A DNA stretch of 21,168 nt from a virus, in the IMG/VR virus record IMGVR_UViG_3300020009_000079, positions 1 to 21,168 of that record; one strand, written 5' to 3'. The notes beneath the pieces were generated by a model. That model did not search any database and was not told the origin of the DNA. It was given only the letters and a program-made list of their open reading frames with translations. Below are positions 627-19,654 of this stretch, piece after piece; position 1 is the stretch's first letter, and the number at the start of each line of letters is the position of its first letter. Both the position numbers and the translations under genes were made by a program.

Positions 627-656
627 GTGACTCGGCTTAATTTCCTGTGCTACAAT
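627..656 (+). promoter_or_regulatory. Array promoter P1
   Basis: GTGACT (627-632), an 18-base gap, then TACAAT (651-656). Only one half of the operator, CGTTA at 619-623, is recognisable. A class B leader follows (CATCAGCAAC...CAACAGAAAG) and ends before ATG 695. It is the leftmost member of the promoter family. Confidence 0.65.
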
Positions 657-694
657 TGCGTCATCAGCAACCCGCAACCAACAGAAAGCACACC

Positions 695-1252
695 ATGACC
701 CGCGCATTCAACTCCAACATGATCGAAGACGAAGCAGCATACGAAGCCGCCATCAAGCGGAAGATCAAGAACGCTTCGCAAGACAAGTTCCACCGCGAGA
801 ACACCGACGGCTATGATGTCATCGACTTCCTGCGCAACGCTTCTAGCTGGTCCGAGTACGCCCGGTCCCTCGCCGGTTCATATGATGACTTCGGCAAGCT
901 GTCACCCGCTCAACTCGACGCCGCCCGTGGCATGATGGCTAAGTCCGCAGCACGCAAGGCCGAGCGCATCGCTCAGCGTGACGCGCCTGCCACCTCTGGC
1001 AATCACATGGGCACCGTCGGTCAGCGCGAAGTGTTTACGCTCACCATCAATAAGATCATCGAAATGGATGGCATGTACGGCACCTCTTATATGCACCTGT
1101 GCAGCGACGCTAACGGCAACGTGTTTAAGTACAAGGGCACGACTGAACTCGGCGAGCAAGGCGCAACCGTGACCGTTAAAGCGACGGTGAAAGAGCATGC
1201 AGCGTACAACGGTGTCGCACAAACCGTCATCAACCGCCCGAAGGTGCAATGA
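695..1252 (+). CDS. Phage protein with predicted C-terminal OB-fold-like domain
   Basis: 185 aa. ATG 695 is chosen because it follows the conserved ACAGAAAG leader; a start at 647 would lie inside promoter P1. The N-terminal half is helical and ends in a segment (about residues 65-95) with KLSPAQLDAARGM. The C-terminal part (about 105-185) contains GTVGQREVFTLTI, MYGTSYMHL and VKATVKEHAAYNGVAQT, a beta-rich pattern that I recall from OB-fold-like C-termini of other phage proteins. A role in binding nucleic acid is an inference. It is the longest of the plus-strand proteins without a recognised enzymatic domain, and the first gene of the array. An intrinsic terminator follows its stop within 9 bases, so it is probably monocistronic. 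Confidence 0.85.
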   Translation: MTRAFNSNMIEDEAAYEAAIKRKIKNASQDKFHRENTDGYDVIDFLRNASSWSEYARSLAGSYDDFGKLSPAQLDAARGMMAKSAARKAERIAQRDAPATSGNHMGTVGQREVFTLTINKIIEMDGMYGTSYMHLCSDANGNVFKYKGTTELGEQGATVTVKATVKEHAAYNGVAQTVINRPKVQ

Positions 1253-1260
1253 ACAATAAG

Positions 1261-1287
1261 AGAAGGGCTCTTGCCCTTCTTCTTTTT
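1261..1287 (+). terminator. Intrinsic terminator after the first array gene
   Basis: Perfect 8-bp stem AGAAGGGC / GCCCTTCT with a TCTT loop, followed by TCTTTTT. It starts 8 bases after the stop of the upstream gene. Confidence 0.85.
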
Positions 1288-1301
1288 ATCTGTGCTATAC
1301 T
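1271..1301 (+). promoter_or_regulatory. Array promoter P2 (no operator; terminator in its place)
   Basis: TTGCCC (1271-1276), a 19-base gap, then TATACT (1296-1301). The -35 lies in the loop and 3' stem of the upstream terminator. The class A leader CACACCAACAGAAAG follows. The CCGTTA/TAACGG repeat is absent. Confidence 0.7.
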
Positions 1302-1327
1302 AGCGGCACACCAACAGAAAGCGCACC

Positions 1328-1525
1328 ATGAACCAGCTCAATCTTTATCGTACAAAATCCATCGGCGAACTCGAATTCATCGTGCGCGACGCAGGCGAAG
1401 CCGCTCTCGCGATGCGCGGCCATGATGAAAAGGCCGAGTGCAAGTATCTCGATCAAGTCAACGACGCGTGCACGGTGTTGTACGAACGCCGCCGCCTGGG
1501 CAAGCCGCAACTGCCGAAAGAATAA
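1328..1525 (+). CDS. Hypothetical small phage protein, 65 aa
   Basis: ATG 1328 follows the CAACAGAAAG leader by 8 bases. The product is short, charged and probably mostly helical (NQLNLYRTKSIGELEFIV at the N-terminus; RRRLGKPQLPKE at the C-terminus). It has no Cys pairs, signal peptide or membrane segment, and I recognise no family. It sits between promoters P2 and P3 and so is likely its own transcription unit. Confidence rests on the dedicated promoter and leader rather than on homology. Confidence 0.75.
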   Translation: MNQLNLYRTKSIGELEFIVRDAGEAALAMRGHDEKAECKYLDQVNDACTVLYERRRLGKPQLPKE

Positions 1526-1532
1526 AAAGAAA

Positions 1533-1563
1533 TTGCACCGTTACGCGGAAACGGTGCTATAAT
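1533..1563 (+). promoter_or_regulatory. Array promoter P3 with operator
   Basis: Perfect inverted repeat GCACCGTT-N7-AACGGTGC (1535-1542 and 1550-1557) directly abuts TATAAT (1558-1563). TTGCAC (1533-1538) could serve as a -35 with a 19-base gap. The leader TCACACCAACAGAAAG follows. Confidence 0.85.
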
Positions 1564-1589
1564 TCCCTCACACCAACAGAAAGCCAGAA

Positions 1590-1904
1590 ATGACCACCTC
1601 CACCATCAAGTTTCAAGAAATCGCCGCCTGGGCAATCGCCGAAGAGAAGGACGCTCGCGCACTGTTCGAATGCGTCGCTCTCCTGGGGCTCGAAGGCAAG
1701 TGGATTCGCCTGAGCGCTGCACAGCAACGCGCAATCATGGGTGCGAACGTCTTCGGCAAGAAAGAATTTTGCATCGGCGAAGACGGCGAGCTTCGCGTCG
1801 CTCACTCGGTCGCCTTCGGTCAAGACAAGGAAATCATTTATTACACTCTCGCCGATGTCCAGCGCGCAATCGCTGCTCCTGGCCTGACAAATATTTCTAA
1901 CTGA
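1590..1904 (+). CDS. Hypothetical phage protein, 104 aa
   Basis: ATG 1590 follows the leader ACAGAAAGCCAGAA. The N-terminal two thirds look helical (IAAWAIAEEKDARALFECVA), followed by a shorter mixed region containing FGKKEFCIGEDGEL and a C-terminal helix LADVQRAIAAPG. It has no metal-binding cluster or membrane segment, and I recognise no family. It lies between promoters P3 and P4 with no co-transcribed partner, so it is probably made alone. The start is well supported by leader position. Confidence 0.75.
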   Translation: MTTSTIKFQEIAAWAIAEEKDARALFECVALLGLEGKWIRLSAAQQRAIMGANVFGKKEFCIGEDGELRVAHSVAFGQDKEIIYYTLADVQRAIAAPGLTNISN

Positions 1905-1907
1905 TTG

Positions 1908-1937
1908 TTGACCCGTTACGGAATAACGGGTTATAAT
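1908..1937 (+). promoter_or_regulatory. Array promoter P4 with operator
   Basis: TTGACC (1908-1913), an 18-base gap, then TATAAT (1932-1937); this is the closest family member to a textbook sigma70 promoter. Operator CCCGTTA-N5-TAACGGG lies at 1912-1930, inside the gap. Confidence 0.88.
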
Positions 1938-1963
1938 TCATCCACACCAACCGAAAGACAGAA

Positions 1964-2266
1964 ATGCAAATCGCAGAAACCATCATCAAGCAACTCGGCG
2001 GCAACAAGTTCGCGGTCATGACCGGCGCGAAGAACTTCTCGTTCGACTCCAAGGACCAACGCGGAACGCTAATGTTCTCGATTGGCCGCAACGCCAAAGG
2101 CGTGAATCGTGTTGCCGTCACGCTGACCGAAGACGACCTGTATAACGTCACGTTCTATTCGCTGCGCTCGCTCAAGCTCACCACGAAGGCCGCAGTCAAG
2201 AGCATCTTCGCCGATCAACTGTGCGACGCTTTTACTGAACATACCGGCCTGTATACGAGCCTGTAA
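1964..2266 (+). CDS. Conserved phage hypothetical protein (QLGGNKF/MTGAK family)
   Basis: 100 aa from ATG 1964, after leader CAACCGAAAGACAGAA. It contains IKQLGGNKFAVMTGAKNF at the N-terminus, an ITL-like beta strand followed by DDLYNVTFYSL in the middle, and TEHTGLYTSL at the C-terminus. From memory, these three segments mark a widespread family of uncharacterised phage and plasmid proteins. The full-length pattern is present, so it looks intact. Function is unknown; no enzymatic residues can be assigned. An HNH endonuclease gene follows 15 bases downstream without its own promoter and is likely carried on the same transcript. Confidence 0.85.
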   Translation: MQIAETIIKQLGGNKFAVMTGAKNFSFDSKDQRGTLMFSIGRNAKGVNRVAVTLTEDDLYNVTFYSLRSLKLTTKAAVKSIFADQLCDAFTEHTGLYTSL

Positions 2267-2281
2267 GATACAATGGCTCTC

Positions 2282-2764
2282 ATGCTAAACGCCGAACGCG
2301 TCAGAGAGCTATTGCTCTATGATCCCGACACCGGGATTTTTACGCGACGCACCGACACCGGCAACGGACGCCGAATCGGTGACGTTGCCGGATACCTCTC
2401 GACAAGAGATGGTTATGTGTTCATCGGTGTCGATGGGCGCGACTATCCCGCGCACCGCTTGGCATGGCTCTACATGACCGGCGAATGGCCGACAACTACC
2501 CTCGACCATCAAGACACCGACAAGGCGAACAACTGCTTCAAAAACCTGCGGCTTGCAGGCCACTCCATGAACGGCGGCAACACACTAAAGCGCATCACCA
2601 ACACATCAGGCGCAAAAGGTGTCTCTCGTTGCTATGGGCGCGGTAAACCCTGGCACGCGCACATTCAGGGTCGATACATCGGCTCATTCGACACAATCGA
2701 AGAAGCGAAAGCCTGTTACGACAAAGCAGCGCGCGAAATATTCGGTGAATTCTTTCGCTCGTGA
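2282..2764 (+). CDS. HNH endonuclease with C-terminal AP2 domain (copy 1)
   Basis: 160 aa. Residues 58-88 hold the HNH core: HRLAW, then TLDHQD with the DH pair at 75-76, then NN at 83-84 and N88. Residues 107-160 resemble an AP2 DNA-binding domain (NTSGAKGVS, WHAHIQGRYIG, EEAKACYDKAAREIFG). Such proteins are typically free-standing homing-type endonucleases that cut DNA and spread by repair. ATG 2282 is preferred over 2273 because the paralogue at 7854 begins MLTVERLKELL, aligning with MLNAERVRELL here. It has no promoter or array leader of its own and sits between a stop codon and promoter P5, which suggests insertion at a gene/promoter boundary. Activity is inferred from motifs. Confidence 0.92.
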   Translation: MLNAERVRELLLYDPDTGIFTRRTDTGNGRRIGDVAGYLSTRDGYVFIGVDGRDYPAHRLAWLYMTGEWPTTTLDHQDTDKANNCFKNLRLAGHSMNGGNTLKRITNTSGAKGVSRCYGRGKPWHAHIQGRYIGSFDTIEEAKACYDKAAREIFGEFFRS

Positions 2765-2785
2765 CGCGGTAACTCGTGCTATACT
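2761..2785 (+). promoter_or_regulatory. Array promoter P5 (degenerate operator)
   Basis: TATACT (2780-2785) in the context GTGCTATACTAGCGGCACA, which is identical to P2. Only one half-site, GGTAAC (2768-2773), remains, and there is no clear -35. The class A leader CACACCAACAGAAAG follows. It begins at the stop codon of the HNH gene. Confidence 0.65.
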
Positions 2786-2811
2786 AGCGGCACACCAACA
2801 GAAAGACAGAA

Positions 2812-3003
2812 ATGACAGCACGCAAATCCTGGGACGAGATCATGGAACGCAAGCACATCACGCGCATGAATCGTGACGACAAGACCGTCGAACGTCTGGA
2901 ACGACTCGAAGAGAAGGCAATGCATCTGATCGGCGAACTATGCCGCGAAGGCTCACAGGCCGATCTGCTGGCATTCCTGATCCGCAATGGGTACGTGCGA
3001 TGA
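2812..3003 (+). CDS. Hypothetical small basic/helical protein, 63 aa
   Basis: ATG 2812 follows the leader ACAGAAAGACAGAA. The product is highly charged (KHITRMNRDDKTVERLERLEE) and predicted mostly helical, with a heptad-like Leu pattern in the middle that could mediate dimerisation. No family is recognised. Its TGA overlaps the ATG of the next gene (ATGA), so the two are likely translationally coupled and share promoter P5. Confidence 0.72.
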   Translation: MTARKSWDEIMERKHITRMNRDDKTVERLERLEEKAMHLIGELCREGSQADLLAFLIRNGYVR

Positions 3004-3215
3004 TTCGCCGCTCGATCACCCTGATGGAACTGCCTGCGGGCGGATGGCTCTGGAAAGAGCACGACCGAACCTACAAGAGCGCCGCAACGGCTCTACGTGC
3101 CATCAGGCGCGCAGACCGGCTCATGGTGCGTCCAGGCAGTGCCGTGACCACCGTTATCACCTGGGAACCCTGTACCTATGCAGGACAACTCGCCGCCAAA
3201 GCCGTCGCCAAATAA
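3000..3215 (+). CDS. Hypothetical small protein, 71 aa
   Basis: ATG 3000 overlaps the previous stop in an ATGA junction, which decides this start. The sequence begins MIRRSITLMELPAGGWLW, then a helical Arg/Ala-rich middle (ALRAIRRADRLMV), then a C-terminus with VITWEPCTYAGQLAAKAV. No family, Cys cluster or membrane segment is recognised. It is the second gene of a two-gene unit under promoter P5. Promoter P6 begins 16 bases after its stop. Confidence 0.68.
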   Translation: MIRRSITLMELPAGGWLWKEHDRTYKSAATALRAIRRADRLMVRPGSAVTTVITWEPCTYAGQLAAKAVAK

Positions 3216-3231
3216 TTATTTTCATTTGCTG

Positions 3232-3261
3232 TTGCGTTACGCGATAACGTCGGGCTATAAT
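3232..3261 (+). promoter_or_regulatory. Array promoter P6 with operator
   Basis: TTGCGT (3232-3237), an 18-base gap, then TATAAT (3256-3261). The operator core CGTTA-N5-TAACG lies at 3235-3249. The right arm sits 11 bases from the -10 rather than the usual 8-9. The leader is a variant (CGAATTAACGAAAGACG). Confidence 0.8.
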
Positions 3262-3293
3262 TCGTCATCGCAACGAATTAACGAAAGACGCAA

Positions 3294-3647
3294 ATGACCA
3301 AAGCAACTAAAATCACCTGCACACGCTGCATGGGCTCGGGCAAGTTCAGTTTCAACCTGACACGCGGCACGGTGTGCTTCGGCTGCAATGGCGCAGGCTT
3401 CATGATGGTCGACGCCGCCAAGCACACGAAGGCCCAGGCAGCGAAGGCCGCACGTCAAGCGAAGGCTGACGCCACGATGGCCCGCCGTCAGGAACTCGCT
3501 CGCCAATTCAGCGCCGAGATCGACGCTCTGTATGGTCCCTTCGCCGACAATGAGAAGGGCGCATACGACCGCATGTGCGCAGCCAAGCGCAACACCGGCA
3601 AGACAATCGGCGAGATGGTCAGCGCTGCCCTCGCACAAGAGATGTAA
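3294..3647 (+). CDS. DnaJ-type zinc-finger-like protein (paralogue of 5951 gene)
   Basis: 117 aa. Two CxxCxGxG-like motifs occur early: CTRCMGSG (about residues 9-16) and CFGCNGAG (about 27-34). These match the cysteine-rich module of DnaJ-like proteins and could bind one zinc ion. The rest is a long Ala/Lys/Arg-rich helix (KAQAAKAARQAKADATMARRQ) followed by a conserved-looking C-terminus with ALYGPFADNEKGAYDRM. No J-domain is present, so it is not a chaperone of the standard type. The 5951 gene shares RCMGSG and the V-C-F-x-C-x-GAG motif. Its role is unknown; nucleic-acid or protein binding is an inference. Confidence 0.82.
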   Translation: MTKATKITCTRCMGSGKFSFNLTRGTVCFGCNGAGFMMVDAAKHTKAQAAKAARQAKADATMARRQELARQFSAEIDALYGPFADNEKGAYDRMCAAKRNTGKTIGEMVSAALAQEM

Positions 3648-3658
3648 CAGTCAAAAGA

Positions 3659-3700
3659 TTTTCGCCGTTACCACCATAACGGCGAAAAACTCGCTATAAT
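3659..3700 (+). promoter_or_regulatory. Array promoter P7 with long operator, shifted register
   Basis: A perfect 12-bp inverted repeat, TTTTCGCCGTTA and TAACGGCGAAAA (3659-3670, 3677-3688, 6-base loop). TATAAT lies at 3695-3700, so the right half-site is 18 bases from the -10 instead of 9. The class B leader (CTTCAGCAACCGACACACAGAAAG) follows. No T-run follows the stem, so it is not a plus-strand terminator. Confidence 0.8.
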
Positions 3701-3735
3701 CGAATCTTCAGCAACCGACACACAGAAAGAACATC

Positions 3736-4119
3736 ATGGCCTACGTAGATCAAGACAAGAAAGCAAAAATCGCCGCCGCACTCAAGCCGGTGATGCCGAA
3801 GGGTTGGAAGTACACACTCGCTGTGCAGAACCACTCCACCATCGTTCTGAACATCGCTTCGGCACCCGTCGACATCATCGCAGCCCTGGTGCCGAGCGAG
3901 TTCCGCAACCCTGCCACGATGACCTATGCGCAGATTTACCACAAGCGCACCGACGAGTGCTTCACGTGCGCCGAGATGACCGCGATTTTCGCAAAGATCA
4001 GCGACGCTCTGAACCTCGACAACTTCGACAAGTCAGACAGCATGACCGATTATTTCCACGTCGGTCACTATGTCGACATCAACGTCGGCAAGTGGAACAA
4101 GCCCTTCGCCGTCAAATAA
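3736..4119 (+). CDS. Conserved phage hypothetical protein (DYFxVGxYVDxNxGKWxKPF type)
   Basis: 127 aa from ATG 3736, 10 bases after CAGAAAG. The C-terminus has DYFHVGHYVDINVGKWNKPF, which I recall as the signature of a widespread uncharacterised phage protein family. The middle has a short beta-like NHSTIVLNI segment followed by APVDIIAA, also typical of that family. The pattern is complete from end to end, so the gene seems intact. No catalytic motif can be assigned, and its function is unknown. It is a single gene between P7 and P8. The family link is from memory, not from a search. Confidence 0.85.
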   Translation: MAYVDQDKKAKIAAALKPVMPKGWKYTLAVQNHSTIVLNIASAPVDIIAALVPSEFRNPATMTYAQIYHKRTDECFTCAEMTAIFAKISDALNLDNFDKSDSMTDYFHVGHYVDINVGKWNKPFAVK

Positions 4120-4130
4120 AAAAAAAGAAC

Positions 4131-4159
4131 GCACCGTTACCCGCTAACGGTGCTATAAT
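4131..4159 (+). promoter_or_regulatory. Array promoter P8 with operator
   Basis: Perfect 9-bp arms GCACCGTTA-N5-TAACGGTGC (4131-4139, 4145-4153) directly abut TATAAT (4154-4159). The leader CTCACCAACAGAAAG follows. This is one of the cleanest family members. Confidence 0.88.
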
Positions 4160-4186
4160 TCAAGCTCACCAACAGAAAGGCACAAA

Positions 4187-4360
4187 ATGCAAATCGGACA
4201 AACAGTCAAAGGCGTCAAGGTCGGAACCTTCGTGATCCTGGGGTTTCGCACCATCGGCAACGAGCAGTATGCGCAACTCAAAGAGGTCTGCCCGACCACA
4301 GGCCGCAAGATGCGCGGAGAGATCGCGTTGCCGATGTCGGCACTCAAATCCATCAACTGA
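4187..4360 (+). CDS. Small conserved phage protein, 57 aa
   Basis: ATG 4187 follows leader CAACAGAAAGGCACAAA. The product starts MQIGQTVKGVKVGTFVILGF and ends ALPMSALKSIN. It looks like a small beta-rich fold with a KEVCPTTG loop. From memory, similar short proteins with VGTFVILGFR occur in other phages without known function. It is the first gene of an unbroken run 4187-5647 that appears to share promoter P8: the next gene starts 9 bases on, and later genes overlap or nearly do. Confidence 0.75.
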   Translation: MQIGQTVKGVKVGTFVILGFRTIGNEQYAQLKEVCPTTGRKMRGEIALPMSALKSIN

Positions 4361-4369
4361 AAGAAAGAC

Positions 4370-4549
4370 ATGCCAGAATACTTTGTATGCGAAGCCGGAC
4401 CGATGGGAGGTTGTCTCATCGTCTGGGCAGGCGCAACCCTGGAAGAGGCGAAGCAATTCATCACCCGCAGAACGTCCCTGTATAACTCTAGGGACAAGAA
4501 GCACGGCAACCCTGCCGAGTATTTCATCTACCATCAAGAAAGCAACTAA
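4370..4549 (+). CDS. Hypothetical small protein, 59 aa
   Basis: ATG 4370 is preceded by GAAAGAAAGAC, a variant of the array leader. The product starts MPEYFVCEAGPMGGCLIVWA and continues into a helical LEEAKQFITRR segment and an aromatic C-terminus (PAEYFIYHQESN). The TAA stop overlaps the next ATG in TAATG, indicating coupling. No family is recognised. Two Cys occur but not in a metal-binding spacing. Confidence 0.68.
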   Translation: MPEYFVCEAGPMGGCLIVWAGATLEEAKQFITRRTSLYNSRDKKHGNPAEYFIYHQESN

Positions 4550-4953
4550 TGCCCTTCAAGCTCACCAAAGAACAAACAGCACAGCGCGACGCAATCGCGG
4601 TGAAGATTCAAGAGCAACGCGAAGCGGTCAACACCGCAGTGACAGCGTTTAATGATGCGATGACCGTCGCACGCGCAGAACTGCAAGAGGCACTCGACGC
4701 CTACAATGAAGCGCTCGCTGAAGCGAAGTCGTTCGCTGAAGATGTCGCGCAGAATTGGGAGAACGATTTCGAAGAGAAGTCCGAACGCTGGCAAGAAGGC
4801 GACAAGGGCAGCGCAGTGCGCGAGATGATCGAAGCATGGCAGAGCGTCGACCTAGACGAAGCAAGCATCGACATGCCCGACGCAGAGATCAGCTTCGATG
4901 ATGTCGAGATGCATGACGAACTGTTGACCGACCTACCGAGCGAAACCGAATAA
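4549..4953 (+). CDS. Acidic coiled-coil phage protein, 134 aa
   Basis: ATG 4549 overlaps the preceding stop (TAATG). Residues about 5-75 form a long, nearly uninterrupted helix rich in Ala, Glu and Gln (KLTKEQTAQRDAI, AELQEALDAYNEALAEA), followed by an EEKSERWQEGDKGSAV segment and a strongly acidic tail. I recall similar proteins, with a KSERWQEG segment, as conserved hypotheticals in phages and plasmids. The low isoelectric point could suit a DNA mimic or a protein-binding role, but that is speculation. It shares the P8 transcription unit. Confidence 0.78.
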   Translation: MPFKLTKEQTAQRDAIAVKIQEQREAVNTAVTAFNDAMTVARAELQEALDAYNEALAEAKSFAEDVAQNWENDFEEKSERWQEGDKGSAVREMIEAWQSVDLDEASIDMPDAEISFDDVEMHDELLTDLPSETE

Positions 4954-4976
4954 CCACCCACAGCAGAAAGCACACC

Positions 4977-5441
4977 ATGAAATTCAGAATCGCGAACGAC
5001 GCAAAGAACAACGCAGGCAAGCTCCTCGACTCGGTCAGCGTACACCAGCACGAGAACGGACGTGTGAGCGTCACAGGCCGCATCAACGGCAGACAGGCAC
5101 CGTGGGAGGGTAGTCTAGGCACGAGCGTAATCTTCGCCGATGCCGAAGCAGAGGCATGGTTGCTCGATCAAAATATCGATTGGATACGGCACGGCAGATG
5201 GCTCGATGAACAGCGCACAAAGCTCGAAGAAGAGCAGCGCATCATAGATGCGGATCGCGCAAAGCGACACGCTCGCGCACGCGAAGAACTCGCCATCATC
5301 GAGGCAGCACAGCGCAAGTTCGCCGTCGCCGTGCGCGAAGGCGTCATGCAATTCGACGGTGTGCCGCAGATCGCGAGCGTCCCAGGTGAAGCAGGCCGCA
5401 AATGGGTATCCGCCTGGGTGCTCGTGGAGGTGCCCGCATGA
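4977..5441 (+). CDS. Hypothetical protein with central coiled coil, 154 aa
   Basis: ATG 4977 follows CACAGCAGAAAGCACACC, the array leader without a promoter in front of it, so it is probably read from P8. The N-terminal 50 residues look beta-rich (VSVHQHENGRVSVTGRINGR). Residues about 70-115 are a charged helix (RTKLEEEQRIIDADRAKRHA), and the C-terminus ends WVSAWVLVEVPA. No recognised domain or catalytic pattern. Its TGA overlaps the next ATG (ATGA). Confidence 0.72.
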   Translation: MKFRIANDAKNNAGKLLDSVSVHQHENGRVSVTGRINGRQAPWEGSLGTSVIFADAEAEAWLLDQNIDWIRHGRWLDEQRTKLEEEQRIIDADRAKRHARAREELAIIEAAQRKFAVAVREGVMQFDGVPQIASVPGEAGRKWVSAWVLVEVPA

Positions 5442-5647
5442 GATGGCACAGGCACAAGTATGCGCACGGGCGGTACATCTGCGGCAACTACACGTGCGAG
5501 AAGGATCATTCTCGCCTGGGTGACGTGTGGAGTCTGAAGTACAACGGTGTCGAGGTGTCGCAGTCGACCACGTTCCGACAAGCGAAAGCAGACGCCTATG
5601 AACATTTTCAGAAAGCGCTTGCGACGTTACGCAATAACGGGTTATAA
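5438..5647 (+). CDS. Hypothetical small protein ending inside promoter P9, 69 aa
   Basis: ATG 5438 overlaps the previous stop (ATGA), which fixes the start against an in-frame ATG further upstream. The N-terminus is His/Arg/Tyr-rich (MRWHRHKYAHGRYICGNYTC) with two Cys. The middle has SLKYNGVEVSQSTTFRQAK. The last residues ATLRNNGL are encoded by the operator of promoter P9, and the TAA stop lies within its TATAAT. It is the last gene of the P8 unit. No family is recognised. Confidence 0.7.
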   Translation: MRWHRHKYAHGRYICGNYTCEKDHSRLGDVWSLKYNGVEVSQSTTFRQAKADAYEHFQKALATLRNNGL

Positions 5648-5648
5648 T
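5619..5648 (+). promoter_or_regulatory. Array promoter P9 inside a coding 3' end
   Basis: TTGCGA (5619-5624), an 18-base gap, then TATAAT (5643-5648). Operator core CGTTA-N5-TAACG lies at 5625-5639. The upstream gene's stop TAA is part of the -10. The class A leader CACACCAACCGAAAG follows. Confidence 0.83.
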
Positions 5649-5674
5649 TCGGTCACACCAACCGAAAGACGAAA

Positions 5675-5890
5675 ATGACCAAATATCAAGCAGCAGACAA
5701 GGCAATCGCCACTTACGACGCGTTTATCTTCGCCGACTTCGGGCGTCCCTTCGATCAAGAGAAGGCCGATCTCCTTGCCGCTGTTGCGGTGTGCGAGTGC
5801 GAAGAAGCCTCGCGTGACCGCTCGGTCAATCAGGCCACACGCGATTACTATCGCGAGCAGGCGAAAATCTTCCGCGCAATTTGCGCATAA
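5675..5890 (+). CDS. Hypothetical small helical protein, 71 aa
   Basis: ATG 5675 follows leader CAACCGAAAGACGAAA. The product is Ala/Glu/Asp-rich and mostly helical (MTKYQAADKAIATYDAFI; QEKADLLAAVAVCE). It has two closely spaced Cys (VCECEE) but no second pair, so zinc binding is unlikely. It is alone between promoters P9 and P10. No family is recognised. Confidence 0.72.
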   Translation: MTKYQAADKAIATYDAFIFADFGRPFDQEKADLLAAVAVCECEEASRDRSVNQATRDYYREQAKIFRAICA

Positions 5891-5895
5891 ACAAC

Positions 5896-5924
5896 GCACC
5901 GTTACCCGATAACGGTGCTATAAT
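5896..5924 (+). promoter_or_regulatory. Array promoter P10 with operator
   Basis: Perfect arms GCACCGTTA-N5-TAACGGTGC (5896-5904, 5910-5918) directly abut TATAAT (5919-5924). The leader GCTCACCAACAGAAAG follows. Confidence 0.87.
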
Positions 5925-5950
5925 CTAGGCTCACCAACAGAAAGCAGACG

Positions 5951-6190
5951 ATGACACACTATTACGAAGAGACGCAAGAGCAGAAAGATGCGTTCTGGTC
6001 CTGGGCAGTCGGCGAAGATACCGCCCGCGCCGCTGTCAAGGCAGTGCTCGCCACTCGCGCCGCTAAGCGCACCGCTGCCGGTGTCATGCGCTGCGGCAGG
6101 TGCATGGGCTCGGGATGGATCAGGAGCTTCGCTCACGTCGCGAATGGTGTATGCTTTGCCTGCGATGGTGCTGGCAACGTTACGCAATAA
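5951..6190 (+). CDS. DnaJ-type zinc-finger-like protein, 79 aa (paralogue of 3294 gene)
   Basis: ATG 5951 follows leader CAACAGAAAGCAGACG. A helical N-terminus (EETQEQKDAFWSWAVG, then an Ala/Arg-rich helix) leads to CGRCMGSG (about residues 48-55) and CFACDGAG (about 68-75). The two Cys pairs match those of the 3294 product (RCMGSG; V-C-F-x-C-x-GAG), but here they lie at the C-terminus, so the module order is swapped. The last codons and stop coincide with an operator-like CGTTACGCAATAAC. Function is unknown. Confidence 0.82.
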   Translation: MTHYYEETQEQKDAFWSWAVGEDTARAAVKAVLATRAAKRTAAGVMRCGRCMGSGWIRSFAHVANGVCFACDGAGNVTQ

Positions 6191-6191
6191 C
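6178..6191 (+). promoter_or_regulatory. Operator-like site without a -10 box (possible relic)
   Basis: CGTTACGCAATAAC is identical to the operator cores at 5625-5638 and 10020-10033, but the next bases (TGGAGCAATCAATG) hold a ribosome site instead of TATAAT. It overlaps the end of the zinc-finger-like gene. Confidence 0.55.
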
Positions 6192-6202
6192 TGGAGCAAT
6201 CA

Positions 6203-6400
6203 ATGAAAGACAAAGACCATGTGGATGATAATCCGTTGTATACTGTTCATGTCTCTCCTTCTTTTCCTGCTGGATGTCAGCACACGTGGGAGTACGCTCA
6301 ACATCTGGACACTGCTGGGAATGTGATCGACGAAGAGCCGACTCACTGCACCAAATGTGGCATGAGCTTCACACGATACATTTTTTTGGAGTGTCCCTAA
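6203..6400 (+). CDS. Small protein with C-terminal CxxC, 65 aa
   Basis: ATG 6203 has a canonical GGAG (6193-6196), unlike genes with the array leader. The product contains GCQHTWEYAQ and HCTKCGMSFTRY. Together, C-x-H in the first and H-C-x2-C in the second could form a small zinc site. No array promoter precedes it, so it is presumably read from P10. Its TAA overlaps the ATG of the next gene (TAATG). No family is recognised. Confidence 0.68.
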   Translation: MKDKDHVDDNPLYTVHVSPSFPAGCQHTWEYAQHLDTAGNVIDEEPTHCTKCGMSFTRYIFLECP

Positions 6401-6579
6401 TGAGCGCACAAACTACCGCAGAACGACAAGCACTGTACCGAGCCCGACGCACCGTCGAAGGTCTTACAGAAGTCAGAGGCATCTACTTGCTGCCCGAGCA
6501 ACACGCCATCCTTCGTGCAATGGCACGCACACTGCAACCCACAGAAAGAAAGCACCACAATGACCGCAACCATAGCTGA
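6400..6579 (+). CDS. Small basic protein, possible ribbon-helix-helix DNA binder, 59 aa
   Basis: ATG 6400 overlaps the upstream stop (TAATG) with GGAG 8 bases ahead. The N-terminus TTAERQALYRARRTVEGL followed by TEVRGIYLLPEQHAILRAMA resembles short phage and plasmid proteins in which a beta strand (VRGIYL) precedes two helices, as in ribbon-helix-helix proteins. This is a pattern-based guess. The C-terminus (RKHHNDRNHS) overlaps the next gene by 20 bases in another frame. If it does bind DNA it is a candidate, untested, for the array regulator. Confidence 0.6.
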   Translation: MSAQTTAERQALYRARRTVEGLTEVRGIYLLPEQHAILRAMARTLQPTERKHHNDRNHS

Positions 6580-6832
6580 CATCGTCGGCAGCACGAAGAA
6601 CATGATCTTCATCCCGGCGCACATGGCGTTGACGTTTGTCGACGCACCGATGATCGGCGTGAAGCTCGGTGAAAAAGGCTTCTGGCCGGTGTTTCATCCG
6701 GACCATGAAGAACTGAACGGACGACCCGCAAGCGATGCGGTGCTTCGATCCGCTGTGCAAGCGAGCATGTTCGGATGGGATGCACCATGCGCACGCGAAG
6801 CGCTCGACTGGCTCGCAGATGGCGCGCAATGA
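6560..6832 (+). CDS. Hypothetical protein, 90 aa
   Basis: ATG 6560 follows the array-type leader ACAGAAAGAAAGCACCACA, which lies inside the preceding gene. The sequence has a hydrophobic MIFIPAHMALTFV stretch (too short and polar to call a membrane segment), then GVKLGEKGFWPVFHPDHEEL, and a helical C-terminus (AREALDWLADGAQ). No family is recognised. It overlaps the following gene by 14 bases. Confidence 0.72.
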   Translation: MTATIADIVGSTKNMIFIPAHMALTFVDAPMIGVKLGEKGFWPVFHPDHEELNGRPASDAVLRSAVQASMFGWDAPCAREALDWLADGAQ

Positions 6833-7460
6833 TGTCGCCTTACGCGGGCGCGACAATCAGCGCAGCCGGGTCTATGCCTGGGAAACGCGGATCACGAAGG
6901 GCACGCACCACTTCGGCACGCTCGCGACCCTGGAAGACTGCCAGGACTACCTGCGCCCGATCTGGCGCGCAGAGCGCGGGCGCTATGGGCGCGCTAGGGT
7001 TGCCGCGCCGCCCATCGAGCGGCCCGCCTGGGGGCAGCGTAGCGCGATTGCGCACGACTGCCACAGGATCACCCTGCCCCGATGGGCGCGCAACCCCTGG
7101 ACGATCCTGCACGAGGCCGCGCACCGGCTGACACCGGACGACGAAGGGCATGGCCCGCGCTTCGTCGGTGTGCTCATGGGGCTCGCTTGTCGGCACCTGG
7201 GGTACGACGCTGACACGCTCATGGCGACGGCTGACGCAATGGGCGTGAAGTACCACGTGCGCAGCATCGGCAGCGTGCCAGTGATCGAGCGCGGTCCCTC
7301 TGCTGCCGTCGCACGAGCGATACGCGACGAAGGCCCGATGACTGAGATGGACCTCGCTTGCTGGTGTGATCTCACCTACTTGCAAGTGCGCGGTGCTGCG
7401 ATGCATTTAATCAAGACGGGACAGGCCCGATGGCTCAGAAAGAAATTAATTCTGATTTAG
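6819..7460 (+). CDS. SprT-like zinc metallopeptidase-like protein
   Basis: 213 aa from ATG 6819; longer upstream starts would run deep into the 6560 gene. HEAAH at residues 98-102 matches the HExxH zinc/catalytic motif, and HGPRF (111-115) supplies a third His, the pattern seen in SprT/WSS1-like and related phage proteins. In the SprT family such proteins cleave DNA-crosslinked proteins; here the substrate is unknown. The C-terminal 50 residues look like a winged-helix-type domain (PMTEMDLACWCDLT, then GAAMHLIKTGQARWL). The N-terminus is Arg-rich. It overlaps the upstream gene, so it is probably read from P10. The start is uncertain because no clear ribosome site is seen. Confidence 0.75.
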   Translation: MARNDVALRGRDNQRSRVYAWETRITKGTHHFGTLATLEDCQDYLRPIWRAERGRYGRARVAAPPIERPAWGQRSAIAHDCHRITLPRWARNPWTILHEAAHRLTPDDEGHGPRFVGVLMGLACRHLGYDADTLMATADAMGVKYHVRSIGSVPVIERGPSAAVARAIRDEGPMTEMDLACWCDLTYLQVRGAAMHLIKTGQARWLRKKLILI

Positions 7461-7490
7461 TTGCGTTACGCGGCAACGGTGGTGTATACT
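7461..7490 (+). promoter_or_regulatory. Array promoter P11 with operator
   Basis: TTGCGT (7461-7466), an 18-base gap, then TATACT (7485-7490). GCGTTA-N5-CAACGG is the operator, with the right arm 11 bases from the -10. It begins immediately after the metalloprotein stop codon. The leader CACACCAACCGAAAG follows. Confidence 0.78.
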
Positions 7491-7516
7491 TCGTGCACAC
7501 CAACCGAAAGACAGAA

Positions 7517-7846
7517 ATGAACGCACTTCAAGCCGCTTGCCCCAAATGCAACCCGCTCTATCCTGAACTGGACGAAGACGGTATTCCTTACACGTGTTAT
7601 GCATGCTGCGACACCGGCATTGTGTCGAAGGATTACGCTGACGCTTACCTGCGTGATCTGGACGACGCTTGCGAGTATCGCGGTATGCGTCCCGTCGTGA
7701 ACGGCAAGCATCAGCGTCTCGACGGTGATGAATACGATAGCTGGTACGTCGCCGAGCCCCTGCTGCCTGCTTCGCTGTTCCCGAAGGTTCGCCGCGCCGC
7801 GCCGGTTTACGCCGCCGAGATCGAATTCGACGATTTACCTTTTTAG
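7517..7846 (+). CDS. Cys-rich zinc-knuckle-like protein, 109 aa
   Basis: ATG 7517 is chosen because it follows leader CCGAAAGACAGAA; an in-frame ATG at 7430 lies upstream of promoter P11. CPKC (about residues 8-11) and CYACCDTG (about 27-34) form a zinc-ribbon-like pair similar to the two other Cys-pair proteins in this block. The rest is acidic (DLDDACEYRG, DGDEYDSWYV) and ends EIEFDDLPF, a phenylalanine-ended acidic tail. Tails like this recruit replication proteins in SSB, but that parallel is speculative. An HNH endonuclease gene follows after 7 bases. Confidence 0.78.
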   Translation: MNALQAACPKCNPLYPELDEDGIPYTCYACCDTGIVSKDYADAYLRDLDDACEYRGMRPVVNGKHQRLDGDEYDSWYVAEPLLPASLFPKVRRAAPVYAAEIEFDDLPF

Positions 7847-7853
7847 GCTAAAC

Positions 7854-8339
7854 ATGCTAACTGTTGAACGACTCAAAGAGTTGTTGACCTATGAGCCCGA
7901 TACCGGGCTCTTTGTTCGACGCATCACCATCGGCAATGCTAGGGCATGTCGGGCCGGTGAAATTGCCGGATACCACAGGACCGATGGATACGTATGCATC
8001 TATGTCGACAATCGAAGGTATCTCGCGCATCGTTTGGCATGGCTATACATGACCGGCGAATGGCCGACGACTAACATCGACCATTGGGACCATGACGAAT
8101 CAAATAACCGTTGGGAAAATTTACGCCTTGCTGGTCAGTCAATGAACAACGGCAACATGACAACACCGATCTCCAACACTTCAGGCGCAAAAGGCGTGAG
8201 CCCTTCGGGATACGTCAATAAGCCGTGGAGAGCAAGACTTCAACACCGAACGCTAGGCTACTTCGCCACAGTCGAAGAAGCGAAAGCCTGTTATGACAAG
8301 GCAGCACGCGAACTTTACAAAGAATTCTTCAACCCGTAG
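7854..8339 (+). CDS. HNH endonuclease with C-terminal AP2 domain (copy 2)
   Basis: 161 aa; paralogue of the 2282 product along the whole length (LAWLYMTGEWPTT, NTSGAKGVS and EEAKACYDKAARE are shared). HNH residues: H59 in HRLAW, the DH pair at 76-77, and NN at 84-85. The AP2-like C-terminal half starts near residue 108. ATG 7854 follows the upstream stop by 7 bases; upstream in-frame starts lie inside the 7517 gene and are rejected. As with copy 1, the gene has neither promoter nor array leader and is followed directly by an array promoter (P12), which suggests two insertions at equivalent sites. Activity is inferred. Confidence 0.92.
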   Translation: MLTVERLKELLTYEPDTGLFVRRITIGNARACRAGEIAGYHRTDGYVCIYVDNRRYLAHRLAWLYMTGEWPTTNIDHWDHDESNNRWENLRLAGQSMNNGNMTTPISNTSGAKGVSPSGYVNKPWRARLQHRTLGYFATVEEAKACYDKAARELYKEFFNP

Positions 8340-8342
8340 CGG

Positions 8343-8366
8343 GTTACGCGATAACGGTGATATACT
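8343..8366 (+). promoter_or_regulatory. Array promoter P12 with partial operator
   Basis: GTTA-N5-TAAC core (8343-8355) and TATACT (8361-8366), with TAACGG 9 bases from the -10. No clear -35. The class B leader (GCTTCAGCAACCGAAAACAGAAAG) follows. Confidence 0.75.
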
Positions 8367-8400
8367 CTAGGCTTCAGCAACCGAAAACAGAAAGCACAGA

Positions 8401-8646
8401 ATGATTGATCTCAACCGCTTCGCCTTTAACAAAACATCCGGCCTTCTTTCCGCTAGCCTCTCTGACCTGGGCATGCGTCGCCTGCCGACCGAAGTCGAGA
8501 TTCGCTCGCACCTGACCGGGCACGTCGTCAAGTTCGTGTACGACACCGAAGCCGCAGAGCGTCACGAGTTCTGGGATGGCGAGATGGCCGAATACGTGCC
8601 GACGACGGCATGCAAAGTGAAAAAGCTCGCGATTATCGCGGCCTAA
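8401..8646 (+). CDS. Hypothetical small protein, 81 aa
   Basis: ATG 8401 follows leader ACAGAAAGCACAGA. It begins MIDLNRFAFNKTSGLL, continues LGMRRLPTEVEIRSHLTGHVVKFVY, and ends VKKLAIIAA. The middle reads as alternating beta strands and may be a small beta domain. No family, Cys pair or membrane segment is recognised. It is alone between P12 and P13. Confidence 0.74.
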   Translation: MIDLNRFAFNKTSGLLSASLSDLGMRRLPTEVEIRSHLTGHVVKFVYDTEAAERHEFWDGEMAEYVPTTACKVKKLAIIAA

Positions 8647-8655
8647 AAATAAAAG

Positions 8656-8685
8656 GCACCGTTACCGCAATAACGGTGCTATAAT
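8656..8685 (+). promoter_or_regulatory. Array promoter P13 with operator
   Basis: Perfect arms GCACCGTTA-N6-TAACGGTGC (8656-8664, 8671-8679) directly abut TATAAT (8680-8685). The leader CACACCAACAGAAAG follows. Confidence 0.87.
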
Positions 8686-8730
8686 TCAAGCACACCAACA
8701 GAAAGCAGCTCACCTCTACGCCTAATCATC

Positions 8731-8925
8731 ATGAAGAAGACCATCACCTACACTGCCGATAACGGCGACATCTATGAGGCCACAAAGGCCGCGCCTGCGG
8801 ACGCCTGGGATGTGAATCATCCTGCCGGTGCGTTCCGCATGTACGGCACGCAACTCGAAGTGCAGCACACGATGAAAGAGATCGCGAAGAAAATGTCGAA
8901 AGACGAAGGGGAACAACATGAGTGA
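8731..8925 (+). CDS. Hypothetical small protein, 64 aa, with unusually long leader gap
   Basis: ATG 8731 is the only sensible start, but it lies 26 bases after the GAAAG of the array leader, compared with 7-10 elsewhere. Product: MKKTITYTADNGDIYEATK, then a short loop, then a helical charged C-terminus (MKEIAKKMSKDEGEQHE). It could be a small beta-hairpin plus helix. No family is recognised. Its 3' end overlaps the next gene by 8 bases. Confidence 0.65.
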   Translation: MKKTITYTADNGDIYEATKAAPADAWDVNHPAGAFRMYGTQLEVQHTMKEIAKKMSKDEGEQHE

Positions 8926-9181
8926 ATTTGCCAACATTAAAGTCGCCGGGCGCGCAACCATTGAAGACTGCGGTCATTACCAAATCGAAGAGAGCGTTGT
9001 GCGTGTGTTCGCGAACACTCCCTTTCAGTGCGCGGTGCAAATCAGGCATCACGGCGGCATCACGCACGGCGGACGTGGCGGCAAGAAGCGTAACATGCTC
9101 GCGACGGTACAACTTGATCGCGCCGGTTTGACCGAACTGCGCGACGCACTCAATGCTTACTTGGAGACAGTCAATGGCTGA
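8918..9181 (+). CDS. Hypothetical protein, 87 aa
   Basis: ATG 8918 is preceded by GAAGGGGAACAAC, a purine-rich ribosome site. Predicted beta-rich: ANIKVAGRATIED, VVRVFANTPFQCAVQI, then a Gly/His/Arg-rich loop (HHGGITHGGRGGKKR) and a C-terminal helix (LTELRDALNAYLETVNG). The basic Gly/His loop could contact nucleic acid, which is an inference. It overlaps the next gene by 8 bases. Confidence 0.72.
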   Translation: MSEFANIKVAGRATIEDCGHYQIEESVVRVFANTPFQCAVQIRHHGGITHGGRGGKKRNMLATVQLDRAGLTELRDALNAYLETVNG

Positions 9182-9407
9182 TTACGCAGGATGGCCGAAG
9201 GACATGCTCGAAGACATCTTCGATGGCATGATGAAGAACATCGCCGAGCGTCCCTATTGGGTCGGCATGGGCGAGAAGCAAGCGTTCGACGCTGTGCGCA
9301 ATGGGCGCATGACGTTCGAAGATTTCGTAGCATGGCACGTGTACCGCTTCGAAGAGATCGAACAAGCAAAGAGCTTTGTTCATACCGGGCGGTCTAACCG
9401 CACATAA
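9174..9407 (+). CDS. Hypothetical small protein, 77 aa
   Basis: ATG 9174 is chosen for its TTGGAG ribosome site 7-12 bases upstream. The sequence is helical and Met/Glu-rich (WPKDMLEDIFDGMMKNIAERP; FEEIEQAKSFVHTGRSNRT) with a FEDFVAWHVYRFEEIE segment. No family is recognised. It is the third gene of the P13 unit. Confidence 0.7.
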   Translation: MADYAGWPKDMLEDIFDGMMKNIAERPYWVGMGEKQAFDAVRNGRMTFEDFVAWHVYRFEEIEQAKSFVHTGRSNRT

Positions 9408-9424
9408 CCCACGAAAGGCAAACC

Positions 9425-9748
9425 ATGAAGAACAGCGAACTACTCAACACCGAGCCCGAACTACTTGGCAGCATAGACAGGCAAAAGCGCTTTCTCGTGT
9501 CGGCGTTCTCCTATCCATTGCCGTGCCCTAATCAAGGCTGCGGCAAGCCCGTCAACGTGTTTGAAGCAATGGGCATCGACATCGATGACTACGTCTTCAG
9601 CGGTCCTAATTCGAGCTATAACCAGCATCAGAAGTACGAATGCCCGCACTGTCACTACAAGCTACGCAAAATTGTGCCGATCTTCAAGCTCAATGAGCCT
9701 GGGCATCATTGGGTGATCGATGAGCCTTTGCCACCCAAAAACAAATAA
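9425..9748 (+). CDS. Zinc-ribbon-like protein, 107 aa
   Basis: ATG 9425 follows CACGAAAGGCAAACC, an array-type leader. CPNQGCG (about residues 34-40) and CPHCHY (about 74-79) give four Cys in a zinc-ribbon arrangement with a 34-residue loop. The rest is mixed with a Pro-rich end (DEPLPPKNK). The variant spacing of the first pair (C-x4-C) is unusual but compatible with zinc ribbons. Its function is unknown; it is the last gene before P14. Confidence 0.76.
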   Translation: MKNSELLNTEPELLGSIDRQKRFLVSAFSYPLPCPNQGCGKPVNVFEAMGIDIDDYVFSGPNSSYNQHQKYECPHCHYKLRKIVPIFKLNEPGHHWVIDEPLPPKNK

Positions 9749-9756
9749 TCGAAATA

Positions 9757-9798
9757 TTTTCGCCGTTACGGCTATAACGGCGGAAATCTGGGTATACT
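9757..9798 (+). promoter_or_regulatory. Array promoter P14 with long operator, shifted register
   Basis: TTTTCGCCGTTA-N6-TAACGGCG with one extra G in the right arm (9757-9768, 9775-9786). TATACT lies at 9793-9798, so TAACGG is 18 bases from the -10, as in P7. The class B leader (CTTCAGCAACCGGAAACAGAAAG) follows. Confidence 0.8.
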
Positions 9799-9832
9799 CT
9801 AGGCTTCAGCAACCGGAAACAGAAAGACAGAA

Positions 9833-10003
9833 ATGAAAGCCTTCGAAATTTTCAACCCCTCGTTCAACGACATGCCCCTGGCCGACCAAATCGCCCACGG
9901 CATCAACGACTGGTGCGTCATCGGTGTGAGCGGTCACGAGTTCTATGGCCGCACCGCTGCCGAAGCCCTCGAAATCTGCGCGATGTATCAGGACAACAAA
10001 TAA
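9833..10003 (+). CDS. Hypothetical small protein, 56 aa
   Basis: ATG 9833 follows leader ACAGAAAGACAGAA. Product: MKAFEIFNPSFNDMPLADQI, then a C-terminal part with WCVIGVSGHEFYGRTAAEAL. It has mixed alpha/beta character, and no family is recognised. It sits alone between P14 and P15, so it is very likely real despite its length. Confidence 0.73.
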   Translation: MKAFEIFNPSFNDMPLADQIAHGINDWCVIGVSGHEFYGRTAAEALEICAMYQDNK

Positions 10004-10013
10004 ATTGAGAAAC

Positions 10014-10044
10014 TTGCACCGTTACGCAATAACGGTGCTATACT
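10014..10044 (+). promoter_or_regulatory. Array promoter P15 with operator
   Basis: TTGCAC (10014-10019), a 19-base gap, then TATACT (10039-10044). Perfect arms GCACCGTTA-N5-TAACGGTGC (10016-10024, 10030-10038) abut the -10. The class B leader (CTTCAGCAACCCGAAACAGAAAG) follows. Confidence 0.86.
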
Positions 10045-10078
10045 CTAGTCTTCAGCAACCCGAAACAGAAAGCGCAAA

Positions 10079-10354
10079 ATGAACGACTATTCTAACGCAG
10101 ACCACATCAACAACGCAGCCGCCCGCGCTCTGGTCCTGGGCGTTCGTCGCAAGTTTTGCGGCATCACCAAAATCTACGGCTCGCGTTACATGAGCCAACT
10201 CGAAACCCTGTGCGGCTACATGGGTGGCGCAACCCGCACGGGCTACGTGCTGACCATCAGCGGCGTCGACAAGGAATTCAAGGCATCCAAGGATGCGGGC
10301 CTCTTCATGGAAGCGAAGATCAACGATCTTTTCGACCTGGGCATCATGGGCTGA
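10079..10354 (+). CDS. Hypothetical protein, 91 aa
   Basis: ATG 10079 follows leader ACAGAAAGCGCAAA. The sequence starts with a helical MNDYSNADHINNAAARAL, then LGVRRKFCGI and a middle with LCGYMGGATRTGYVLTISG, and a C-terminal KINDLFDLGIMG. No family is recognised. The last codons and stop form the 5' arm and loop of an intrinsic terminator, so transcription probably ends right at the gene. Confidence 0.75.
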   Translation: MNDYSNADHINNAAARALVLGVRRKFCGITKIYGSRYMSQLETLCGYMGGATRTGYVLTISGVDKEFKASKDAGLFMEAKINDLFDLGIMG

Positions 10355-10363
10355 TGCCCTTTT
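10339..10363 (+). terminator. Intrinsic terminator overlapping a stop codon
   Basis: Stem GGGCATC / GATGCCC (10339-10345, 10353-10359) with a 7-base loop, then TTTT. The 5' arm and loop are the last codons and stop of the preceding gene. Confidence 0.75.
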
Positions 10364-10367
10364 GATG

Positions 10368-10373
10368 TATAAT
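10368..10373 (+). promoter_or_regulatory. Array promoter P16 (terminator in place of operator)
   Basis: TATAAT (10368-10373) sits 5 bases after the T-run of the terminator. No -35 or CCGTTA/TAACGG is seen. The class B leader (CTTCAGCAACCGCAAACAGAAAG) follows. Confidence 0.65.
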
Positions 10374-10407
10374 CAATTCTTCAGCAACCGCAAACAGAAA
10401 GACAGAA

Positions 10408-10632
10408 ATGACCAAATCGCACATCCTCTTCTCCGGCCTTGAGCGTGACACACGCGGCATCAAAGTTCGCTTCTCCATCATGGGCAAGGGCTCGCTCGCA
10501 GGCTTCGAGGTCGCCACGTGCACGAGCGGCTACGCGTTCCCCTCCTACGGTGCCGCACTCAAAGGCGCACGCCGCGCACTCGTCAAGATCGAGCGCACCG
10601 GCAAATTTCCCAATATGTGCGAGCGCTTCTAA
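10408..10632 (+). CDS. Hypothetical small basic protein, 74 aa
   Basis: ATG 10408 follows leader ACAGAAAGACAGAA. The sequence is basic and beta/alpha mixed: ILFSGLERDTRGIKVRFSIM, then AGFEVATCTSGYAFPSYG, then AALKGARRALVKIERTG at the C-terminus. No family is recognised. It is the last plus-strand gene of the block. Its stop overlaps the stop of the convergent minus-strand gene by two bases (10630-10631). Confidence 0.75.
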   Translation: MTKSHILFSGLERDTRGIKVRFSIMGKGSLAGFEVATCTSGYAFPSYGAALKGARRALVKIERTGKFPNMCERF

Positions 10633-19399: not shown

Positions 19400-19654
19400 A
19401 TGGAACTCAGATGCTTATTCGAGAACGAGCACTACATCGTGTGCACGCTCACCGGCAGCGGTGCTCTACGCACCGAAGGTATTGAGGTAGTCAACAAGTC
19501 GGATCACGTCTGCACTTATTTGACTGGCAAGATGCGCCGCGTCTTCATGCGTCAAGTCATCGACTGGCGCAAAAACACACCCGATGAAAAAGTAGTCGAA
19601 GCACGACTAGAAGAATTTCTCGTGCTCAACACGCAGCCGCTAGTGCTTCACTAG
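19400..19654 (+). CDS. DUF3567-like protein
   Basis: 84 aa from ATG 19400. It begins MELRCLFENEHYIVCTL, has a middle TEGIEVVNKSDHVCTYLTG followed by a helix (RVFMRQVIDWRKNTPDEK) and a second helix (EARLEEFLVLNTQPLVLH). From memory, Burkholderiales DUF3567 proteins share this build: an N-terminal beta part with YEIVDK-like residues, a helix with a conserved V/I-x-x-L/I pattern, an acidic helix with EEFL, and a terminal P-L/V-VLH. Function of the family is unknown to me. It is the best host clue in the window. It has its own promoter and is divergent from the replication genes. Confidence 0.75.
   Translation: MELRCLFENEHYIVCTLTGSGALRTEGIEVVNKSDHVCTYLTGKMRRVFMRQVIDWRKNTPDEKVVEARLEEFLVLNTQPLVLH

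Follow-up and report, generated by a model that had tools for sequence, protein, structure and literature searches.

Repeated promoter cassettes with a shared putative operator in the small-gene array of an uncultivated phage and its relatives

What controls a block of about 30 small phage genes in which one and the same promoter seems to recur 16 times? The question is raised by the IMG/VR virus record IMGVR_UViG_3300020009_000079, a fragment of an uncultivated phage that was analysed here as the complete record (21,168 bp, hereafter the window). Its left half carries the small-gene array on the plus strand (695..10632), in the direction opposite to that of the flanking late genes, and its right half encodes MuF-like, portal, terminase and D5-type primase/helicase proteins on the minus strand. 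A sequence-only reading of this DNA had proposed a regulon assembled from copies of one promoter with an inverted repeat as operator and a dimeric repressor or activator acting on it. Our analysis indicates that the array is real and well conserved, and that its design is known from other phages and its sequence is new. Of the two parts of that proposal, one dimeric DNA-binding protein is most likely; as to its action, repression is favoured, with activation as a rival.

All 16 promoters (P1 to P16) were recovered de novo with a pattern for the -10 box and leader, 16 of 16 on the plus strand and none on the minus strand, and about 30 genes were counted from 695 to the end of the last one at 10632; both figures agree with the sequence-only reading. 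Twelve promoters, P3, P4 and P6 to P15, contain the dyad CGTTA-N5/6-TAACG with at most one mismatch in its ten arm bases, also as described, and exact CCGTTA-N4-7-TAACGG occurs seven times in the window versus 0.00 expected. The single set distance between dyad and -10 box did not hold, as the centre lies 10.5-13.5 bp upstream in ten promoters and 21 bp upstream in P7 and P14, about one helical turn beyond the other ten. Instead of two leader types there are three, the third, TCATCGCAACGAATTAACGAAAG, being carried by P6. The -35 boxes, described as poorly conserved, are indeed weak but not absent, a TTG at a spacer of 18-19 bp being common in the 10.5-13.5 classes. In the proposed operator arms CCGTTA and TAACGG, the outermost C and G are for the most part a feature of a single class.

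Annotated phages offer no close DNA for comparison: megablast of the whole window returned only one 41-bp match. Relatives were found within IMG/VR. Two of them, G006 (35.8 kb) and G002, extend the window's phage at 98-99% identity, and G001, G003, G007, G011, G005, G008 and others share about 72-90% nucleotide identity. G011 (59,217 bp) is considered near-complete because G005 bridges both of its ends, and G014 (59,275 bp, near-complete) is a more distant, largely co-linear relative. No cassette was present in G010, whose GC content is 27% over the stretch read, and this record was excluded as a chance pattern match.

From these relatives 75 distinct cassettes were aligned, 53 of which contain the dyad (at least 9 of 10 arm bases). 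Its position relative to the promoters of related phages is not random: in 45 of the 53 the centre is 10-14 bp upstream of the -10 box, which places the dyad between -35 and -10, and in the other eight it is 20-22 bp upstream, with none between. The dyad is thus tied to promoters across relatives, which bears out the notion of a regulon of repeated promoter-operator-leader cassettes. In order, a complete cassette consists of the operator CGTTAC-N3-(A)TAACG, preceded in some classes by a tract rich in A, the -10 box TATAAT or TATACT, a probable start some 7 nt further on, and the leader. The leader ends in CAGAAAG or CGAAAG, the distance between the -10 box and the ATG is mostly 32 or about 38-41 nt, and all three leader types have GAAAG before the ATG; AGAAAG would be expected to base-pair with the 3' terminus of 16S rRNA in beta-proteobacteria. 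Longer arms, GCACCGTTA/TAACGGTGC, are seen in the 11.5-12 class, the right extension being the TGC of an extended -10 box, and a TGn extended -10 is found in 23 of the 24 promoters of this class. The 10.5 and 13.5 classes usually have TTG at an 18-bp spacer. The cassettes qualify as sigma-70 promoters, defined by a -10 box with either a -35 box or an extended -10, except that those of the 20-22 class mostly lack both the -35 box and TGn. The dyad spacer is asymmetric and oriented, its first base being C in 46 of 49 sites. One cassette of G005 and G008 has three half-sites about 10 bp apart and looks like an intermediate between two position classes, and G014 keeps the core alone, GTKACGCNNTAAC, at the 13.5 position.

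In the window, all promoters read along the plus strand. The ten with the nearer dyad each have a leader, and comprise P3 (1539..1589; operator 1539-1553, TATAAT 1558), P4 (1914..1963; operator 1914-1928, TATAAT 1932), P6 with its third leader type (3235..3293; operator 3235-3249, TATAAT 3256), P8 (4135..4186; operator 4135-4149, TATAAT 4154), P9 (5625..5674; operator 5625-5639, TATAAT 5643), P10 (5900..5950; operator 5900-5914, TATAAT 5919), P11 (7464..7516; operator 7464-7478, TATACT 7485), P12 (8342..8400; operator 8342-8356, TATACT 8361), P13 (8660..8730; operator 8660-8675 with a 6-nt spacer, TATAAT 8680) and P15 (10020..10078; operator 10020-10034, TATACT 10039). The two with the dyad one turn further upstream are P7 (3666..3735; operator 3666-3681, TATAAT 3695) and P14 (9764..9832; operator 9764-9779, TATACT 9793). 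P1 (619..694) has a degenerate dyad at 619-632, centred about 25 bp from its TACAAT at 651, and a leader; it serves the first array gene, gp1 (695-1252, plus strand; PHROG 27218, function unassigned), whose product looks SSB-like by eye. P2 (1260..1327; TATACT 1296) and P16 (10339..10407; TATAAT 10368) have a leader and no operator, the usual place of which is occupied by terminator-like hairpins at 1260-1281 and 10339-10359, respectively. P5 (2760..2811; TATACT 2780) has a degenerate operator at 2760-2774, and in the sister G006 the same promoter has a perfect, reversed dyad; P5 of the window adjoins a segment with an HNH gene that was not found in G006.

For a scan of whole genomes, a weight matrix was built from 39 sites of phages outside the window's own clade, using the 5-nt spacer only. 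It recovered most sites of the array: nine dyad promoters scored 18.5-26.6 bits and the degenerate P5 13.9 bits, P7, P13 and P14 with their 6-nt spacer lying outside what the matrix models. An orphan operator on the plus strand (6178..6192; 20.3 bits) lies at the 3' end of gene 5951-6190 without a nearby -10 box, and nothing else in the window exceeded 8 bits. The top score across 40 first-order Markov simulations was 15.8 bits. Strong sites are almost confined to the arrays of the window, G011, G014, G007 and G001; the exceptions include one 20-bit match inside a distant gene of G011, nearly all of whose strong sites are in the array, and one 16.6-bit match outside the array of G014. GTKACGCNNTAAC is absent from parts of the gene-sharing named phages P106B, HMSP1-Susan and Medea1, HMSP1-Susan containing two stray GTTA-N5-TAAC, and a comparison of the promoter DNA with annotated phages gave marginal matches only.

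Furthermore, orthologous genes usually keep an operator across phages, its sequence and its position class being variable. Depending on the phage, the gene at 1964 is preceded by an operator at 10.5, 11.5 or 13.5, the gene at 3736 by one at 21 or 13.5, and the gene at 8401 by one at 10.5, 11.5 or 21.5; certain genes, among them the one at 1328 and those of the 2812 family, lack an operator in most phages. Thus it is the presence of an operator and not the particular copy that is conserved. A further comparison is provided by G022 (51.5 kb), a syntenic sister with which most of the backbone is common (98% identity to G014 for a capsid-region protein, 83% for the DNA polymerase). The operator was not found in G022 (best matrix score 11.3 bits), a record that may be incomplete elsewhere but whose array locus is flanked by the expected genes. 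This locus spans only about 2 kb, with gp1 and a few tiny genes, and its four promoters have the leader and the -10 box without the dyad. Leader and -10 box are therefore separable from the operator and, judged by this comparison, operator and expanded array are gained or lost together. As a side observation, most of these four promoters (G022, L090; minus strand, at 46266, 46024, 45770 and 45551) share another motif, roughly TTCTGGTG, directly upstream of the -10 box.

On these grounds we propose that the roughly 30 small genes would be driven by 16 copies of one cassette for the host RNA polymerase, consisting of the operator, a -10 box that is often TGn extended, and a short leader in which AGAAAG or CGAAAG would serve as the ribosome-binding site. 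Placed mostly between -35 and -10, the operator CGTTAC-N3-ATAACG would be bound by one dimeric protein, which we infer to be encoded by the phage, and the bound dimer would keep RNA polymerase off, resulting in co-ordinate repression, for example as a shut-off after an early burst. Repression is the simplest reading because a site near -24 overlaps polymerase contacts and because the promoters of the 11.5-12 class look self-sufficient; the size and position of the genes and their likeness to those of other phages suggest early timing. We give co-ordinate repression of the array by one dimeric DNA-binding protein a slightly better than even chance of being correct. Several points weigh against it. 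No regulator was identified, a simple blocking repressor does not need the one-turn jump to the eight sites at 20-22 bp that leaves the interval empty, and the promoters of that class, mostly without -35 box and TGn, would fit an activator. Nor is an oriented spacer required of a symmetric repressor, though common ancestry of the copies could explain it.

The same observations would suit an activator of phage or host origin that binds this operator, contacts RNA polymerase from two positions one turn apart and switches the array on, as would the third half-site in G005 and G008, placed about 10 bp off as in an intermediate. Such an activator is possible, albeit rather doubtful, as most sites are centred near -24 and do not have MerR geometry there, and as P1, P2, P5 and P16, and homologues in relatives, lack a full operator at the usual place. 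To our knowledge, only MerR-type activators work from near -24. A MerR-type operator, with the dyad centred in a 19-20 bp spacer, was considered and rejected, since TTG lies mostly at 18 bp and the centres range from 10.5 to 21.5 bp.

As to a regulator encoded by the phage, a role in lysogeny, as implied by the sequence-only reading, found no support: no match to an integrase or to HTH_3 was obtained in five relatives (G011, G014, G001, G007 and G006), two of them near-complete, and on this basis a temperate repressor is not indicated, though one of another type might exist. Pfam and PHROG scans of 65 non-structural G011 proteins revealed no repressor, sigma factor or RNA polymerase among the 25 top families. 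Five genes are found in the operator-bearing relatives with array coverage and are missing from G022, namely the 2812 family, 4549-4953, 6400-6579, 6560-6832 and 6816-7460. The comparison with G022 thus narrows the regulator to about five genes if it is phage-encoded, and the binder would then probably be among them. None of the five has a recognised DNA-binding fold; the product of 6816-7460 looks SprT-like by eye. By co-occurrence only, the basic protein of 59 amino acids encoded at 6400..6579 (plus strand) is a candidate regulator, its 45-residue core being strongly conserved in those operator-bearing relatives whose sequence includes this region of the array and not found in G022. A ribbon-helix-helix identity, first suggested by its sequence, was abandoned as no Pfam, PDB or phage-record match was obtained. 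Its AlphaFold model shows helix-strand-helix (predicted local distance difference test, pLDDT, 81) without a Foldseek match at E <= 0.001, and the structure model of the 2812 family protein, a second conserved small protein, is of low confidence. A bolder proposal is a regulon island, in which about 25 accessory genes and the operator were gained as a unit by an apparently virulent lineage and an unrecognised small phage protein from within the block acts as an activator from either of two positions a helical turn apart, at or within the promoter spacer; we consider this unlikely.

The binder might also be a host regulator or nucleoid protein by which the phage couples the array to the state of its host. 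This would accord with the lack of a recognised phage regulator in near-complete relatives and with a long association with one host order, as suggested by a DUF3567 protein (PF12091, E 4e-10) at 19400-19654 of the window. The gene is also present in all four long relatives covering the region, and the G011 orthologue has no match among 50,697 phage records. The DUF3567 family has been reported solely from Burkholderiales (PMC4364669), and since the gene is present in the window and four long relatives, the host order is probably Burkholderiales. Against a host binder, two genome-collection scans with specific promoter-plus-operator patterns, one for each of two patterns, gave no exact match among the species genomes of 84,980 bacteria and archaea and so no host operon sharing the promoter pattern, although a host operon may lack such flanks. 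In addition, the site is missing from G022 in spite of its close synteny and its own DUF3567 gene. Overall, a host binder appears unlikely.

Alternatively, the inverted repeats could act in RNA, as hairpins or transcription terminators. Many arms reach 8-12 bp, several sites have T-rich tracts on the minus strand beside the hairpin, a terminator-like hairpin stands at the corresponding position in P2 and in P16, and the array is antisense to the flanking late genes. The minus-strand hairpins with such tracts had first suggested antisense terminators; terminators in either orientation were dropped because T-tract scores at the dyads are mostly near background on either strand. As a set, the operators do not show the GC-rich hairpin followed directly by a T-tract of an intrinsic terminator, a description that fits the hairpins of P2 and P16. 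Arms are only about 5 bp long in many 10.5- and 13.5-class sites and in the G014 sites, and the arm extension of the 11.5-12 class coincides with the TGC of the extended -10. The outer arms show no covariation within position classes beyond composition, apart from a few weak single positions, and an RNA hairpin was rejected for this reason. With arms that do not covary and T-tracts that are mostly weak, the dyad, as read from the aligned sites, is a DNA operator and not an RNA hairpin or terminator, and a function in RNA is very improbable. Least credible of all are relics of cassette duplication serving as recombination seams for the swapping of small genes, which would account for the orphan operator at a gene-end joint, for the strongly different gene content among relatives and for the one segment that differs between 98-99% identical strains, but not for a core that outlives its surroundings, G014 keeping it at the same promoter position, nor for operators that persist before orthologous genes though their position class shifts. 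The orphan operator itself is a probable recombination joint, because the G007 orthologue of gene 5951-6190 ends in a different tail.

Among known systems, the ESAS/SAS cassettes of cluster K mycobacteriophages, which the sequence-only reading did not mention, come closest (Pope 2011, PMC3203893; Adephagia 2024, PMC11373665). Adephagia has seven ESAS motifs of 46-47 bp with SigA-like hexamers and an imperfect inverted repeat, located beside start-associated sequences (PMC11373665). In both systems a repeated intergenic promoter with an inverted repeat stands, together with a start-associated leader, ahead of some of the small non-structural genes, and no regulator has been assigned in either. 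The features that define ESAS/SAS, promoter hexamers with an overlapping or adjacent inverted repeat before several genes and a conserved leader by the start codon, are found in the array, whereas the sequence (SAS GGGATAGGAGCCC) is not matched and leader and operator differ, which makes the array an analogue and not a member. The ESAS repeat is also longer (15-17 bp), imperfect and variable in its spacer, hosts and sequence are unrelated, and Adephagia is a temperate phage with seven motifs, in contrast to twelve in 10 kb and no sign of lysogeny here. Cluster O mycobacteriophages (PMC4351075) resemble the array in having more than 30 dyads of 17 bp with predicted dimer binding in integrase-less phages; their dyads lie mostly off promoters and about a third in genes, whereas nearly all strong sites of the array are at a -10 box. 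The 21-22 bp repeats of T1, TLS and Stevie (PMC11447400, PMC4319613) number about 20, are mostly intergenic and of unknown function, and occur in virulent siphophages, but they are asymmetric direct repeats without a dyad or clear promoter. Cluster A stoperators, the sites of the L5 repressor, share with the array the many copies of one regulatory site per genome. The likeness to stoperators seen by the sequence-only reading finds no support in the strict sense, as these are asymmetric, oriented and mostly away from promoters, and the present sites are dyads within promoters, nearly always just upstream of the -10 box. Stoperators are, moreover, the targets of a temperate phage's immunity repressor. 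In phiC31, conserved inverted repeats provide many dyad operators at the early promoters of one phage, as in the array, but phiC31 is a temperate actinophage with a known repressor.

Arrays of tiny genes are a main reservoir of host-takeover functions in phages, and their regulation is usually unknown. The 53 natural operator variants, the two position classes and an operator-less syntenic sister constitute a ready comparison for the control of many promoters by one protein, and the same set bears on the possibility that phages acquire new small genes by inserting them downstream of a ready-made cassette.

A -10 box plus CACACCAACAGAAAG or a close variant was also seen in four operator-less viral contigs (L046, L048, L052 and L055); the leader might be more widespread among phages that infect this group of hosts, or chance might account for some of these matches. 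The window contains two HNH-type genes (2273-2764 and 7855-8339) with about 73% DNA identity to each other, the first of which gives an HNH_3 match and a weak AP2 match and belongs to a segment that G006, elsewhere 98-99% identical, does not have. In G014, three tandem genes for proteins of 225-249 amino acids with a DPPYG-type motif, DNA methyltransferase-like by eye, are inserted after the array (42486-44599). Finally, the last array gene and the convergent late gene of the window overlap by 4 bp (10629-10632), which leaves no room for a terminator, and late transcripts may therefore run antisense into the array.

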